Below are positions 44,493 through 58,684 of a stretch of 64,000 bases of DNA, piece after piece. The stretch spans positions 4,526,001-4,590,000 of the forward strand of contig NZ_CP063458.1 in NCBI RefSeq assembly GCF_015169395.1, in the 5' to 3' direction. The notes under the pieces were generated by a model. It did no database searches, was not told the origin of the DNA, and was given only the letters and a program-made list of their open reading frames with translations. The DNA is from Humisphaera borealis. GTDB taxonomy: Bacteria > Planctomycetota > Phycisphaerae > Tepidisphaerales > Tepidisphaeraceae. The translations under genes and the position numbers were made by a program. The stretch's first letter is position 1, and the number at the start of each line of letters is the position of its first letter.

Positions 44493-44627
44493 CAGTGACA
44501 CGGGCTTCCAGCCCGTGCGAGCGGCGCCTGAGTAGTTGGTTGCTCATACGCCGCTCCTCAATGATCTGATACGACAGGTAGTCTCGACTACACCATCGCC
44601 CGCACGGGCTGGAAGCCCGTGTCACTG
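44493..44627. repeat. Inverted pair of ACGGGCTTCCAGCCCGT palindromes
   Basis: One copy on each strand (44493-44517 and 44602-44627), identical over about 25 bases including a CAGTGAC flank. They face each other across ~85 bases between gmd and fcl. A third, diverged copy is at 46603-46623. Confidence 0.85.
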
Positions 44628-53687: not shown

Positions 53688-54917
53688 TTAACCCTCGGCG
53701 ACGCTCGCCAGCACGTCGCGGTCGCGAACGCCGACGAGGTACAGGATACCGTCCAGCCCGAGCGTGGAGATCTTGTGCCTTGCCGACTGTGCCACGACCG
53801 GCTTGGCGTGAAACGCGATTCCCAGCCCGGCGACGGCGAGCATCGGCAGGTCATTGGCGCCGTCGCCAACGGCGATCGTCTGACGCAGTGAGATGTTTTC
53901 CTTCGCCGCAATCTCCTTGAGCAACTGCGCCTTACGCTCGGCGTCAACGATCTCGCCTTTCACTTTCCCGGTCAGTTTGCCCCCGACGACCTCGAGATCG
54001 TTCGTGCAGACGTGGTCGATGCCGAGTTTCTGCTGCAGGTATCTCCCAAAGTAGGCGAACCCGCCGGAGATGATCGCGGTCTTGTAGCCGAAACTCTTGA
54101 GGGTTGAGATCAGTCGCTCCGCGCCTTCGGTCAGACGAAGCCGGTCGGCGACACGCTGCATGACCGAATCGCTCAGCCCTTCCAGCAGTGCGACGCGCCG
54201 CGAGAGCGATGTTCGGAAGTCCAGCTCCCCGCGCATCGCCTCTTCGGTCACCGCCGACACCTGCTCGTACACGCCGGCCTCGCGGGCCAGTTCGTCGATG
54301 ACCTCGGCCTGGATGAGCGTCGAATCCATGTCGAATGCGACCAGGCGGCGCATGCGGCGATAGACGTCGTCGTGTTGCCAGGCGATATCGACAGGATGCT
54401 GCTGCGTGATCGCCATGATCGCCGCCCGGAGATCACTTTCGTTCTTCGGCTTGCCGCGCACGGAGAACTCGACGCACGCCCGGCGGGGCTTGCCGTCGTC
54501 ATTCCGTGGCGGCCGCCCTGACAGCCGGGTGATGATGTCGATGTTCAAGCCCTGCTCGGCGATCAGCGATGACACCGCCTGGACGTGCCGTGCGTGCAGC
54601 TCGCGGGCGAGCAGCGTCAGGATGTACCGGGGCTTGCCCTCGCGGCCGACCCACGCATCGTACTCGGCGTCTTCGACGGGCGTCATGCGAAGCCGCAGGC
54701 CTTCGTGATGGGCCGTGAATAGCAGGTCCTTCAGCACGTTGGTCGATTCGACGGACCGCGAGATGCGCACGAGCATGCCCAGCAGCAGCGTGCGGTGGAT
54801 GACGGTCTGGTTCAGGTCGAGAATCTGGATGTCATGCTGCGCGAGGATGCCCGAGAGAGAAGCGGTAAGTCCGGGGCGGTCTTCACCGGTGACGTGGAGG
54901 AGGAGAATTTCTTGCAT
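53688..54917 (-). CDS. serB: Phosphoserine phosphatase with ACT domains
   Basis: 409 residues. Two N-terminal ACT-like domains (about 1-78, 'LLHVTGEDRPGLTASLSGIL', and 95-170) are followed by a HAD phosphatase. Nucleophile Asp196 and general acid Asp198 lie in 'LVAFDMDSTLIQAE'; motif II is 'KTAIISGGFAYF' (Ser), and motif III/IV is 'TIAVGDGANDLPMLAVAGLG'. It catalyses the last step of serine synthesis, hydrolysis of phosphoserine, with the ACT pair as a probable serine sensor. A RAYT gene lies immediately upstream on the same strand. Confidence 0.95.
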   Translation of the reverse strand: MQEILLLHVTGEDRPGLTASLSGILAQHDIQILDLNQTVIHRTLLLGMLVRISRSVESTNVLKDLLFTAHHEGLRLRMTPVEDAEYDAWVGREGKPRYILTLLARELHARHVQAVSSLIAEQGLNIDIITRLSGRPPRNDDGKPRRACVEFSVRGKPKNESDLRAAIMAITQQHPVDIAWQHDDVYRRMRRLVAFDMDSTLIQAEVIDELAREAGVYEQVSAVTEEAMRGELDFRTSLSRRVALLEGLSDSVMQRVADRLRLTEGAERLISTLKSFGYKTAIISGGFAYFGRYLQQKLGIDHVCTNDLEVVGGKLTGKVKGEIVDAERKAQLLKEIAAKENISLRQTIAVGDGANDLPMLAVAGLGIAFHAKPVVAQSARHKISTLGLDGILYLVGVRDRDVLASVAEG

Positions 54918-54940
54918 CGGACCAATTCGGGTGAGCGCGG

Positions 54941-55593
54941 CGTGGTCGCTTCAGCGACCATGATTCCTGAGACGCGATCGTTCGTATCTAGCGTAGGGGA
55001 TCTTCTCGAGAAACGCATTGAGTTCAACCGCACGTGGCACGGCGCGTTCAATATCGACGTTTACGATGGTATGCGGATACTCCCGGTGATCCCGCACCAG
55101 TTTCGCTCGCACCGCCTGCAATAGCGTGTATCGGTATGCACGTCGCGCCTGAAGAACGTCGCGAATGCATCCGTCAAAATAGTCCTGATTCCCAGCCCTT
55201 CGCCAGAAAGGGAGGTGTCGAGTTGGCAAAGTGTCGTTTACCAGCTTTGCGACGGAGCCGTGTAAACGTTGCATGAGCGGCCCCAGATTCTCACCAACTT
55301 TCAAGTATCCAAGCGTGTGATAGTGGTTGTTCAGAAGCGAAGTAACCCATGGCACGAATCCGTAGTGTGTGGTCCAGTGATGGAAGCGGTCCCAGAAAAC
55401 CGTCTTTGCTGGATCGCTTTCGAACGCGGGGAACTTGTCCCTGCAACGCGCGGTGATGAAGTAGACACTATTGTCGCGATACCAGTGTTCGAAACGGTGC
55501 TGCTCCTCGTAGAACTCGTGTGCGGTGTACGAGCTTTTGCGGAACTTCCCCATTCATTCGAATATACCCATCATGGTCGCTGAAGCGACCACG
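54941..55593 (-). mobile_element. REP-RAYT element: transposase between identical inverted palindromes
   Basis: The outer 22 bases (54941-54962 and 55572-55593) are identical inverted copies. Each is itself a near-palindrome with core TGGTCGCTTCAGCGACCA. The RAYT gene lies between them, and its TGA stop falls inside the left copy. This is the classic organisation of REP-associated tyrosine transposases. Confidence 0.88.
54951..55553 (-). CDS. REP-associated tyrosine transposase (RAYT, Y1_Tnp/IS200-like)
   Basis: 200 residues. The HUH-type active site is degenerate but recognisable: 'VYFITARCRDKFPAF' (first strand) and 'SLLNNHYHTLGYLKVGENLG', with His-x-His-equivalent NHYH supplying the metal ligands. 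'SVAKLVNDTLPTRHLPFWRR' and 'YFDGCIRDVLQARRAYRYTL' hold the catalytic-Tyr helix region, followed by 'NPVRAKLV'-like 'LLQAVRAKLVRD'. The expected role is cutting and joining single-stranded REP hairpins. Its position between palindromes supports this. Confidence 0.88.
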   Translation of the reverse strand: MGKFRKSSYTAHEFYEEQHRFEHWYRDNSVYFITARCRDKFPAFESDPAKTVFWDRFHHWTTHYGFVPWVTSLLNNHYHTLGYLKVGENLGPLMQRLHGSVAKLVNDTLPTRHLPFWRRAGNQDYFDGCIRDVLQARRAYRYTLLQAVRAKLVRDHREYPHTIVNVDIERAVPRAVELNAFLEKIPYARYERSRLRNHGR

Positions 55594-55606
55594 CCGGCAG
55601 CCACAT

Positions 55607-55643
55607 CCCAAAAAACAAGGCACCCGGTTTGCACCGGGTGCCT
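55607..55643 (-). terminator. Rho-independent terminator of ppdK
   Basis: On the minus strand an 11-bp stem (55643-55633 with 55628-55618) with a 4-nt loop is followed by a T-rich tract (TTGTTTTTTGGG). It lies ~25 bases after the ppdK stop codon. Confidence 0.88.
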
Positions 55644-55668: not shown

Positions 55669-58413
55669 TTACTTCTTCTTTGTCGCCGCATTGGCGCTCT
55701 TGATCGCGGCCTGAGCCGCGGCCAGTCGGGCGATGGGGACGCGGAAGGGGCTGCAGCTGACGTAGTTCAAGCCGACCTTGTGGCAGAACTCGACGGACTT
55801 GGGGTCGCCGCCGTGCTCACCGCAGATGCCGCACTTGAGGTCCTTGTTCGTGCCGCGCCCGAGCTTGACAGCCATCTCGATCAGCTTGCCGACGCCGCCG
55901 ATGTCCAGGCTCTGGAACGGGTCGCGCGGCAGGATCTCCTTCTTGATGTATTCCGGCAGGAAGACGCCGGCGTCGTCTCGGCTGTAGCCGAACGTCATCT
56001 GCGTCAGGTCGTTCGTGCCGAAGCTGAAGAACTCGGCGGTCTGAGCCATCTCGTCGGCGGTGATCGCGGCGCGGGGCACCTCGATCATCGTGCCGTACAT
56101 GTACTCGACCTTGGTGCCGGCTTCCTTGAAGACCGCATCGGCCGTCTGGACCGTGATCTTCTTGAGGTAGTCCAGCTCTTCCTTGGTGCCGGCGAGCGGG
56201 ATCATGATTTCCGGCAGAACCTTGACCTTCTCCTTCTTGACCGCGACGGCGGCTTCGAGGATCGCCCGGACCTGCATCTCAAGGATTTCGGGGTAGGTGA
56301 TCGCCAGGCGGTCGCCGCGATGGCCGAGCATCGGGTTGCTCTCGTGGAGCTGATCGACGCGGTTCTTCACCTGCGCCAGCGTCAGGCCGAGGGAGTCGGC
56401 GAGGACCTTCTGGTCCCTCTCGTTGTGGGGCAGGAACTCGTGCAGCGGCGGGTCCAGCAGGCGGATGGTCACCGGCAGGCCGGCCATCGCCTTGAAGATG
56501 CCGATGAAGTCTTCCCGCTGGTAGGGCAGGAGCTTGGCCAACGCCTTCTTGCGGGCTTCGATGTCCGTCGCCAGGATCATCTCACGCATGTGCTGAATGC
56601 GTTCCGGGTCGAAGAACATGTGTTCGGTGCGGGTCAGGCCGATGCCTTCAGCGCCGAAGTTACGAGCCACCTCTGCGTCATTCGGGGTGTCGGCGTTCGT
56701 GCGGACCTTCAGGGTGCGGTGCTTGTCGGCCAGGACCATGAGCTGCTTAAACGGGCCGGTCAGGCTGGCTTCGACCGTGGGGACCGAGCCTTCCATGACG
56801 TCGCCGGTGCCGCCGTCCAGCGAAATGACGTCCTTGTCCGTGTACGTCTTGCCGTTGATGACCAGGGTGCGAGCCTTGGCGTCGATCTGCAGGGCACCTG
56901 CGCCGGCGACGCAGGGGGTGCCCATGCCGCGGGCCACGACCGCCGCGTGCGACGTCATGCCGCCGGTGCTGGTCAGGATGCCTTCCGAGACGTGCATGCC
57001 GCCGATGTCGGCCGGCTCGGTCTCGCGGCGGACAAGGATGATCTGCTCGCCCTTGCCGACGCGTTCCTCGGCCTCTTCGGCCGTGAATGCGATCTTGCCG
57101 ACGGCCGCGCCCGGCGAGGCCGGCAGGCCCTTGGCGACGATCGTCTTGGGGAAGTTCGGATTGAAGGTCGGGTGCAGGAGCTGGTCGAGGGCGGCCGGAT
57201 CGACCCGCAGGATCGCGGTCTTCTCGTCGATCAGCTTTTCCTTGAGCATCTCGATAGCGATGCGGACGGCGGCCGGGGCGGTGCGCTTGCCGTTGCGCGT
57301 CTGCAGCATGTAGAACGTGCCGCGTTCGATCGTGAACTCAAAGTCCTGCACGTCTTTGTAGCGGGCTTCCAGCTTCTTCTTGACTTCCAGCAGTTCCTGC
57401 CAGCCCTTCTTGCTCCACTTGGCCATCTCGGACTTGCATTCGAGCGGCGTGCGAATGCCGGCGACCACGTCTTCGCCCTGGGCGTTGACGAGGAACTCGC
57501 CGTAGAACTCGTTCTCGCCGGTGCTGGGGTTGCGGGTGAACGCCACGCCGGTCGCGCAGTCGTCGCCCATGTTGCCGAAGACCATCGCCTGGACGTTGAC
57601 GGCGGTTCCGAGCAGGCCGCGGATTTCGTTGATCTCGCGGTAGCGGATGGCGCGATCGCCCATCCAGCTCTTGAAGACGGCTTCGATCGCCAGCGTGAGC
57701 TGCTCGATCGGGTCGGTCGGGAACGGCGAGCCGACGTGCTCTGCGTAGACCTTCTTGTAGCGTTCGACGACGTCCTTCAGGCCGTCGGCGTCGAGGTCGG
57801 TATCGAGTTCAACGCCCTTGGCGTTCTTGACGGCCGACAGCTCATGTTCGAAGTGGTGGTGGTCGACGCCCATGACGGTGTCGCCGTACATGTTGATCAG
57901 CCGGCGATAGCTGTCGTAGGCGAAGCGGTCGTTCTTGGTGAGGGCGGCCATGCCGGCGACGACGGCGTCGTTGAGGCCGATGTTGAGCACCGTGTCCATC
58001 ATGCCGGGCATGGAGTCTTTGGCGCCCGATCGACAGGCCAGCAGGAGCGGGTTCTTGGGGTCGCCGAACTTCTTGCCGGTCGCCTTTTCGACGCGGGCCA
58101 GGTGCAGCTTCACTTCGTCGAGCAGGCCCTTGGGGAGCTTTTGGCCGGCGTCGTTGTATTCCTTGCAGGTCGCGGTGGTGATGGTGAAGCCCGGCGGCAC
58201 GTTCAGGCCGGCGGAGGTCATGTCGGCGAGGTTCGAACCTTTGCCGCCGAGCAGGTCGCGCATGGTCACGTTGCCTTCGGCCTTGCCGGAGCCGAAGAAG
58301 TAAACGCGCTTGATGCCGGCTTTGGCGGCGGTCTTCGGGGCGGCTTTGCTGGCGGACTTGGCAGCGGGCTTGGCGGCCGGCTTCTTGGCAGGCTTGGTCT
58401 TGGTTTTGGCCAT
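55669..58413 (-). CDS. ppdK: Pyruvate, phosphate dikinase
   Basis: 914 residues from the ATG at 58413. A ~33-residue Lys/Ala/Pro tail (AKTKTKPAKKPAAKPAAKSA) precedes the conserved core, which starts 'KRVYFFGSGKAEGNVTMRDL'. ATP-grasp domain: 'LGGKGSNLADMTSAGLNVPP'. Swivel phosphohistidine: His489 in 'GGMTSHAAVVARGMGTP'. C-terminal PEP/pyruvate TIM barrel: 'SFGTNDLTQMTFGYSRDDAG' and catalytic Cys864 in 'CGICGEHGGDP'. It interconverts pyruvate + ATP + Pi and PEP + AMP + PPi. The basic tail is not part of the family and resembles H1/AlgP-like repeats. It has its own promoter, long leader and terminator. Confidence 0.97.
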   Translation of the reverse strand: MAKTKTKPAKKPAAKPAAKSASKAAPKTAAKAGIKRVYFFGSGKAEGNVTMRDLLGGKGSNLADMTSAGLNVPPGFTITTATCKEYNDAGQKLPKGLLDEVKLHLARVEKATGKKFGDPKNPLLLACRSGAKDSMPGMMDTVLNIGLNDAVVAGMAALTKNDRFAYDSYRRLINMYGDTVMGVDHHHFEHELSAVKNAKGVELDTDLDADGLKDVVERYKKVYAEHVGSPFPTDPIEQLTLAIEAVFKSWMGDRAIRYREINEIRGLLGTAVNVQAMVFGNMGDDCATGVAFTRNPSTGENEFYGEFLVNAQGEDVVAGIRTPLECKSEMAKWSKKGWQELLEVKKKLEARYKDVQDFEFTIERGTFYMLQTRNGKRTAPAAVRIAIEMLKEKLIDEKTAILRVDPAALDQLLHPTFNPNFPKTIVAKGLPASPGAAVGKIAFTAEEAEERVGKGEQIILVRRETEPADIGGMHVSEGILTSTGGMTSHAAVVARGMGTPCVAGAGALQIDAKARTLVINGKTYTDKDVISLDGGTGDVMEGSVPTVEASLTGPFKQLMVLADKHRTLKVRTNADTPNDAEVARNFGAEGIGLTRTEHMFFDPERIQHMREMILATDIEARKKALAKLLPYQREDFIGIFKAMAGLPVTIRLLDPPLHEFLPHNERDQKVLADSLGLTLAQVKNRVDQLHESNPMLGHRGDRLAITYPEILEMQVRAILEAAVAVKKEKVKVLPEIMIPLAGTKEELDYLKKITVQTADAVFKEAGTKVEYMYGTMIEVPRAAITADEMAQTAEFFSFGTNDLTQMTFGYSRDDAGVFLPEYIKKEILPRDPFQSLDIGGVGKLIEMAVKLGRGTNKDLKCGICGEHGGDPKSVEFCHKVGLNYVSCSPFRVPIARLAAAQAAIKSANAATKKK

Positions 58414-58684
58414 GATCTTGGGGTCTCCGGTTCGATCCGTGAACGAGTGCCTGAAGGTCGCGCGGTCGCTGTAAAATGGAGTGGGAGCGGCCATGCCCGA
58501 GACATCGGGCTTAAAAGCGTCGCAGCGATTGTGGGCGTTCGTTCGTTTCCTTCCCGAACATGCGGTCGGGTGTGCCGCCGGTGGCAATACCGAATCCCTC
58601 TCGGGTCGCGCCACCGGCTTGCGTGCGACCCGCTTTACTTACGGTTTTCAACTGGCTATGCGAATGCTTCGCCGGGCGAAAGAG
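58414..58684 (-). promoter_or_regulatory. Long structured 5' leader of ppdK
   Basis: About 270 nt separate the predicted start from the ATG. It contains a 9-bp GCCGGTGGC/GCCACCGGC stem (58577-58585 with 58610-58618) enclosing a smaller CCGA/TCGG pairing. A 6-bp GCCCGA/TCGGGC hairpin lies at about 58495-58510. No known riboswitch class is recognised. Confidence 0.5.

Follow-up and report, generated by a model that had tools for sequence, protein, structure and literature searches.

The window, the 64,000-nucleotide stretch of Humisphaera borealis DNA analysed here, very probably holds a REP-associated Y1 (HUH/tyrosine) transposase with its own small REP family, from a mainly planctomycete (Planctomycetota) branch whose REPs lack a GTAG head. 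We observed the anatomy of the element, the dispersal of its repeat, the conservation of a loop and of a fixed spacing, the covariation of the stem and a match in fold to a known RAYT. On comparative grounds we class it as a putative new RAYT-like subclass with non-GTAG REPs and a predicted biochemical activity.

A transposase gene between two inverted REPs

The gene lies between serB and a pyruvate phosphate dikinase gene and is bounded by a perfect inverted repeat of 27 nt, the two copies being 605 nt apart (Table 1). Each copy contains the hairpin TGGTCGC-TTCA-GCGACCA, and 20 nt separate the end of the upstream palindrome from the start codon. When the window was searched for the repeat with up to three mismatches, just the two flanking sites matched, each on both strands; as 0.05 matches are expected by chance, the pair is not a chance occurrence. 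A sequence-only reading of this DNA had described a RAYT gene with identical inverted repeats of its own, 22 bases long, and with its stop codon inside one of them. The gene is indeed flanked by REPs of its own. These recur elsewhere in the genome; the two at the gene form an identical inverted pair, with the stop where that reading placed it, and are 27 nt long rather than 22. As single-stranded DNA, the TTCA strand folds better than its complement (-10.5 versus -7.6 kcal/mol). The transposase gene has a GC content of 54% and a GC3 of 63%, compared to 64% for its neighbours and a GC3 of 83% for serB, and this low GC is consistent with acquisition from elsewhere.

Table 1. Window coordinates of the RAYT-like element and its surroundings
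Feature	Position	Strand	Details
RAYT-like Y1 transposase gene, 200 aa	54951-55553	minus	N76-H77-Y78-H79 HUH motif, catalytic Tyr142, Gln146
TGA stop of RAYT-like gene	54951-54953	minus	bases 1-3 of the TGAA loop (gene sense)
Last residues of transposase, HGR			codons contributed by the downstream REP
Upstream REP (gene sense)	55570-55596	minus	reverse complement of CGGCGTGGTCGCTTCAGCGACCATGAT; head GGCG 55592-55595, palindrome 55574-55591, loop TTCA 55581-55584
Downstream REP, inverted	54938-54964	plus	CGGCGTGGTCGCTTCAGCGACCATGAT; head GGCG 54939-54942, palindrome 54943-54960, loop TTCA 54950-54953
Terminator-like 11-bp hairpin AGGCACCCGGT/ACCGGGTGCCT	55618-55643		between the element and the PPDK gene; a neighbour, outside the REP family
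serB (phosphoserine phosphatase with ACT domains)	53688-54917		adjoins the RAYT-like gene
Pyruvate phosphate dikinase (PPDK)	55669-58614		other neighbour of the RAYT-like gene

Pattern searches of the whole genome located the exact 18-mer at seven sites, five of them distant from the gene. A pattern with three stem bases left open added three variant copies: two with compensated stems, in which both arms are altered together (TGGTCGG-TTCA-CCGACCA and TGGTTGC-TTCA-GCAACCA), and one with a single mismatch. A fourth variant has a TGCA loop. This brings the GGC[AG]-headed copies to 11, flanking pair included, and the reversed control pattern had no match in the genome. The sequence-only reading had proposed such a search and had held that a 22-base repeat found nowhere else would not be a REP family; the repeat does recur, at five further exact sites and, with variants, in 11 copies. 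According to an ORF scan, several copies sit right behind a likely gene end, 4 nt past a TAG (L001), 6 nt past a TGA (L003) or 6 nt from the TAA of a gene that faces the repeat (L007), and one (L006) is within a long ORF. No second copy of the transposase was found in the genome, and a single gene with a recurring palindrome points to a REP/RAYT pair rather than an insertion sequence. With a gene between two inverted REPs, dispersed REPs and a low-copy transposase, the system falls within RAYT/REP in the broad sense. The low number of REP copies in its own genome counts against this reading, about 11 compared to 37-427 for Stenotrophomonas REPs (PMC2817692).

Conservation across planctomycete loci

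The transposase product had no match to Pfam PF01797, a PDB search with its sequence found nothing, and its 53.1 bits on the REP_Tyr_transpos model (NF047646) is below the cut-off of 80. A structure model built from 45 homologues reached a pLDDT of 85 (46 when built from nine sequences), and its best fold match was 4er8, the complex of the E. coli RAYT with a REP hairpin (E 4.4e-7, TM 0.62/0.74), followed by the IS608 and ISDra2 transposases. N76, H77, H79, W117, Y142 and Q146 are invariant in all 45 homologues. The HUH histidines and catalytic tyrosine on a TnpA fold place the protein in the HUH/Y1 (TnpA-Y1) superfamily. Within it, class 2 enzymes have Y---NP, and a W-Q pair is tied to reading of the GTAG guide, whereas NHVH, Y----Q and a CnGA foot characterise class 3, likewise planctomycete (PMC6006769). 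Neither class fits. The tyrosine motif is Y---Q in 45/45 homologues, not Y---NP; the residue following W117 is R, V, S or A in most, mainly R, not the Q or E of the class 2 W[QE]; the middle HUH residue is Y in 43 of the 45 (NHYH); and CnGA is absent from the REP logo. The combination of NHYH with Y---Q is likewise absent from the published table of 12 TnpA-Y1 subclasses (PMC6006769).

At E values up to 0.001, homologues occur in 10 of 61 near genomes and in 38 of the 397 genomes of the class, with clear homologues (E below 1e-50) in 19 of the latter. We collected 48 homologous loci, nearly all from Planctomycetota, including Phycisphaerae and Pirellulales MAGs, Lacipirellula limnantheis, Bythopirellula polymerisocia and strain ZRK34; one is from a Vicinamibacteraceae MAG. 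Genomes that bear the gene have one copy as a rule. Its position between inverted REPs is common to most of these loci, and at many of them there are inverted REP pairs on one side, in a REPIN-like arrangement. At a minority of loci one or both sides lack a recognisable REP, which in some but not all cases is due to a nearby contig end. We sought an empty donor site and found none: in the relatives examined, serB and the PPDK gene lie apart, which leaves no pre-insertion site to be read. In two near-identical RAYT loci (L081 and L083) similarity stops near the outer REPs, which is suggestive only as to the boundary of the element. In another pair, from two planctomycete MAGs (L062 and L068), the upstream flank is 64-90% identical and most of the RAYT 92-100%, a comparison that suggests replacement of the RAYT allele by recombination.

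For the REPs themselves, we aligned 57 flanking copies from 34 non-redundant loci, with a TT[ACT]A loop and a paired stem as the only criteria for selection. As the loop was a selection criterion, its conservation was judged not from the logo but from a census of perfect hairpins with 4-nt loops and arms of at least 7 bp. TTNA/TNAA-loop hairpins numbered 71 in 19.4 kb of flanking DNA compared to 13 in 319.6 kb of background, and those with other 4-nt loops 7 and 41, respectively. A G at position -11, 11 nt before the loop, was no search criterion and is present in 57/57 REPs and 34/34 loci (2.00 bits). An extension of the stem to this G was considered and rejected: the mirror position, +15, is weakly conserved (0.38 bits, mostly C or T) and forms a Watson-Crick pair with it in just 44% of the REPs. 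The same G precedes 17 of 19 dispersed TTHA hairpins elsewhere in the loci examined. In published GTAG REPs with TTNA loops, known from Haemophilus influenzae, Thioalkalivibrio, P. putida GB-1 and P. entomophila, the head G is also 11 nt from the loop (sequences from PMC2817692). The remainder of the head differs from the class 2 GT[AG]G, being GGCG or GGCA in H. borealis and mostly GGC in relatives (GGC at -12 to -10 in 48/57 REPs).

The inner stem prefers CRC/GYG and the rest of it is variable (TGGTCGC, CTGGTCAC, GCCCGC, CTGGCCGC, TGGGCAC, TGCCGAC and others). Upstream and downstream REPs of the same locus differ on average in 0.9 of 8 arm bases, those of different loci in 4.2, and the distance between stems tracks that between RAYT proteins (Mantel r 0.435, reached by 0 of 5000 permutations). 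Mutagenesis of a Marinomonas enzyme has shown that T, T and A of the loop are needed with the third position free, and that the stem must pair, complementing changes having a moderate effect and mismatches being harmful (PMC8266576). Judged by sequence comparison, our REP pattern matches these requirements, save the GTAG letters beyond the first G.

The pattern GGNNTGGTCRCTTNAGYGACCA matched in 12 of the 397 class genomes and its control in none. Matches occurred in 6 of 19 gene-positive and 6 of 378 gene-negative genomes (odds ratio 29, p 4e-6, uncorrected for relatedness). Among the six REP-positive genomes without a detected homologue, two (G022 and G017) are 95-100% complete and have 9-10 matches, which indicates that the REPs can outlast the gene or spread without it. 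All eight genomes whose loci have the stem of this pattern contain matches, the most being in Lacipirellula limnantheis, where 44 matches correspond to about 30 sites because palindromic TTAA sites count on both strands. Strain ZRK34, whose RAYTs have other stems, has none.

Other palindromes and RAYT-model loci of the genome

Because the palindromes elsewhere in the window have other cores, the sequence-only reading had supposed that a single RAYT would have to serve several cores unless there were more RAYTs. There are more: we found 15 RAYT-model loci in the genome, and at least five others besides the studied one are flanked by different palindromes. About 1.3 Mb away, L040 (genome 5924311-5924760) encodes a canonical RAYT with 173 bits on NF047646; its flanks are GTAGGGTGGGCG REPs, and it is surrounded by five or more REPs with a GTGGGCG core, the GTAGGGT foot being intact in several. 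The palindrome CACGGGCTtccAGCCCGTG, an inverted pair in the window (44499-44517 and 44603-44621), also flanks L045, and L041, L043 and L044 have further, different palindromes at their flanks. Separate RAYTs thus carry separate palindromes. The dominant GTAGGGTCCGCC/GTAGGGTCCGCCTTGGCGGAC-type palindromes form a high-copy GTAG REP family (239 pattern matches, none with the control), with GTAGGGTCCGCCTTGGCGGAC sites in the window at, for example, 24565, 26245, 26313, 39093 and 39144, often as close inverted pairs. Among the RAYT loci examined in the genome, none has the exact GTAGGGTCCGCCTTGGCGGAC (GTAGGGTCCGCC) core at its flanks, and so a strict pairing of one core with one RAYT is not shown for every palindrome. 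A RAYT-model gene flanked by the palindrome itself, which the sequence-only reading had proposed to look for in each family, is present for GTAGGGTGGGCG (L040) and CACGGGCTtccAGCCCGTG (L045) but was not found for the GTAGGGTCCGCC family, which may be served in trans by L040 or may have lost its own RAYT. One other REP of the window, GTAGGGTGGGC-TTCA-GCCCACC (23150), has the 11-nt spacing and TTCA loop of the studied REP.

Several other Y1 transposase genes were observed along the way. The domain in L045 (genome 3416035-3416346) is within a 935-aa frame that, read by eye, appears to continue into a helicase-like region. L039, in another genome (G004:C487), encodes a different Y1 transposase domain in a 579-aa open frame that continues, also by eye, from a thiamine-phosphate-synthase-like region, with GTAGGACAGACATTCCTGTCTGTC REPs in-frame between its two parts. 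L017 and L018 (genome 4158921-4160221) are near-identical Y1 transposase genes in tandem, each preceded by the same ATAAGGGGACATCACTCTTTTC leader, and a third relative, L019, is located elsewhere in the genome.

The stop codon and the nature of the element

A downstream REP is recognisable in 31 non-redundant loci. Among these, the stop codon overlaps the palindrome in 17 and the loop in 12, and it overlaps the REP or has it within 15 nt in 26. In the 14 remaining loci the stop is not within the palindrome, and in five the REP begins at least 28 nt past it. An inverted TTYA loop (TTCA or TTTA) reads TRAA (TGAA or TAAA), so that an in-frame ORF ends there, and this geometry is the simplest reason for a stop within the REP. 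The sequence-only reading had drawn a parallel with the GTAGGGT family, in which repeats supply stops; the arrangement is not special in that sense, as it follows from the TTYA loop being read on the opposite strand. REPs overlapping RAYT 3' ends, and GTAG termini providing TAG stops, were noted earlier by Di Nocera (PMC3733652). In E. coli, REPs up to 15 nt from a stop lower translation (Liang 2015, as cited in PMC12306157), and this makes self-limitation of the transposase plausible by analogy.

We consider it very unlikely that the element is an ordinary IS200/IS605-type insertion sequence, with the repeats as subterminal hairpins and the other copies as remnants of dead elements. The Y---Q motif is as in class 1 (PMC6006769, Table 1), and the modelled HUH fold is near those of the IS608 and ISDra2 transposases, but its top match is the RAYT 4er8. 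Several near-identical transposase copies would be expected, yet there is one gene per genome as a rule and no such second copy here, and the additional repeats are solitary palindromes of 22-27 nt between or behind genes. The left and right ends of IS200/605 elements are distinct, unlike the two repeats, which are identical and inverted.

Still less probable is that the repeats are mRNA elements, stabilisers or terminators, that flank the gene by accident and are not recognised by the enzyme. A hairpin that contains the stop or is at most 15 nt from it at 26/31 loci, and the E. coli effect (PMC12306157), would suit such elements, but the upstream hairpin is equally conserved, shares the loop and is inverted; the TTNA loop and the -11 G are strand-specific and no features of a stem; stems track the protein; and the RNA near the stop folds no more stably than shuffled sequences do (z -0.36). 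A proposal that would add to the REP/RAYT reading rather than exclude it is that selection has made the stop in the downstream REP an autoregulatory device, termination in the hairpin limiting the transposase and coupling it to REP integrity. We regard this as unlikely: the recurrence of the stop in the palindrome, in the loop or within the 15-nt range favours it, but a gene that abuts a TRAA loop should show this arrangement even in the absence of selection, and five loci have the REP at 28 nt or more past the stop.

The element is a genuine REP/RAYT pair, belonging to a known type of system and to a branch marked by a distinct signature. With canonical class 2 RAYT/TnpAREP systems (Nunvar 2010, PMC2817692; Quentin 2018, PMC6006769) it shares the HUH and tyrosine enzyme, a gene between inverted REPs, dispersed REPs, stem diversity that tracks the enzyme and a head G 11 nt before a TTNA loop, but it differs in Y---Q, in the residue following W117, in the mostly GGC head and in its score on NF047646. 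REPtron Mb of Marinomonas sp. MWYL1 (PMC8266576) is similar in that its TTTA loop is required at positions 1, 2 and 4 with position 3 free, its stem is largely exchangeable if paired, and GTAG plus 2 plus 5 nt places the loop at 11 nt; it differs in keeping the GTAG guide and in its group 3 enzyme from a gammaproteobacterium. TnpA-Y1 class 3 (PMC6006769) has similar hosts (Planctomycetes, Acidobacteria), atypical non-GTAG structures and a Gln in the tyrosine motif, but NHVH, Y----Q and a CnGA foot, as opposed to NHYH, Y---Q and a G-N10 head, mostly GGC, here. In TIRtrons (TIRYT; Di Nocera 2013, PMC3733652), according to the available part of that report, non-GTAG inverted repeats also flank a transposase gene, some self-complementary and some overlapping its 3' end, but they are long, many with GGGGWSAS, and a fixed spacing or TTNA loop is not among the features that part reports.

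We infer binding, cleavage, mobility and an effect on translation from these comparisons. On single-stranded DNA, the enzyme would recognise a REP through the TTNA loop and the G fixed 11 nt 5' of it, with a stem that must pair and whose sequence would drift along with the enzyme. Tyr142 would nick beside the hairpin, and new sites, often close behind genes, could thereby receive copied or relocated REPs, either singly or as an inverted pair. Where the gene extends to the REP boundary, the inverted TTYA would read TRAA and place the stop within the downstream REP, and a REP at or just past the stop may damp translation of the transposase. A broader proposal is tentative, and we think it rather doubtful as a whole: a separate planctomycete subclass of REP transposases that dropped the GTAG guide for a G-N10-TTNA rule, with free stem drift leading to fast REP diversification and the REP-supplied stop as built-in expression control.

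What is known of REP recognition by RAYTs and of the reasons for stem variability comes from a small number of GTAG-using gammaproteobacterial enzymes. In the planctomycete family, a natural series, the stem has changed and so has most of the head, but the loop and a single G at constant spacing are retained, and this points to a minimal recognition code that is directly testable. The TTYA loop, a stop codon on the other strand, offers a simple account of how a REP can end a reading frame.
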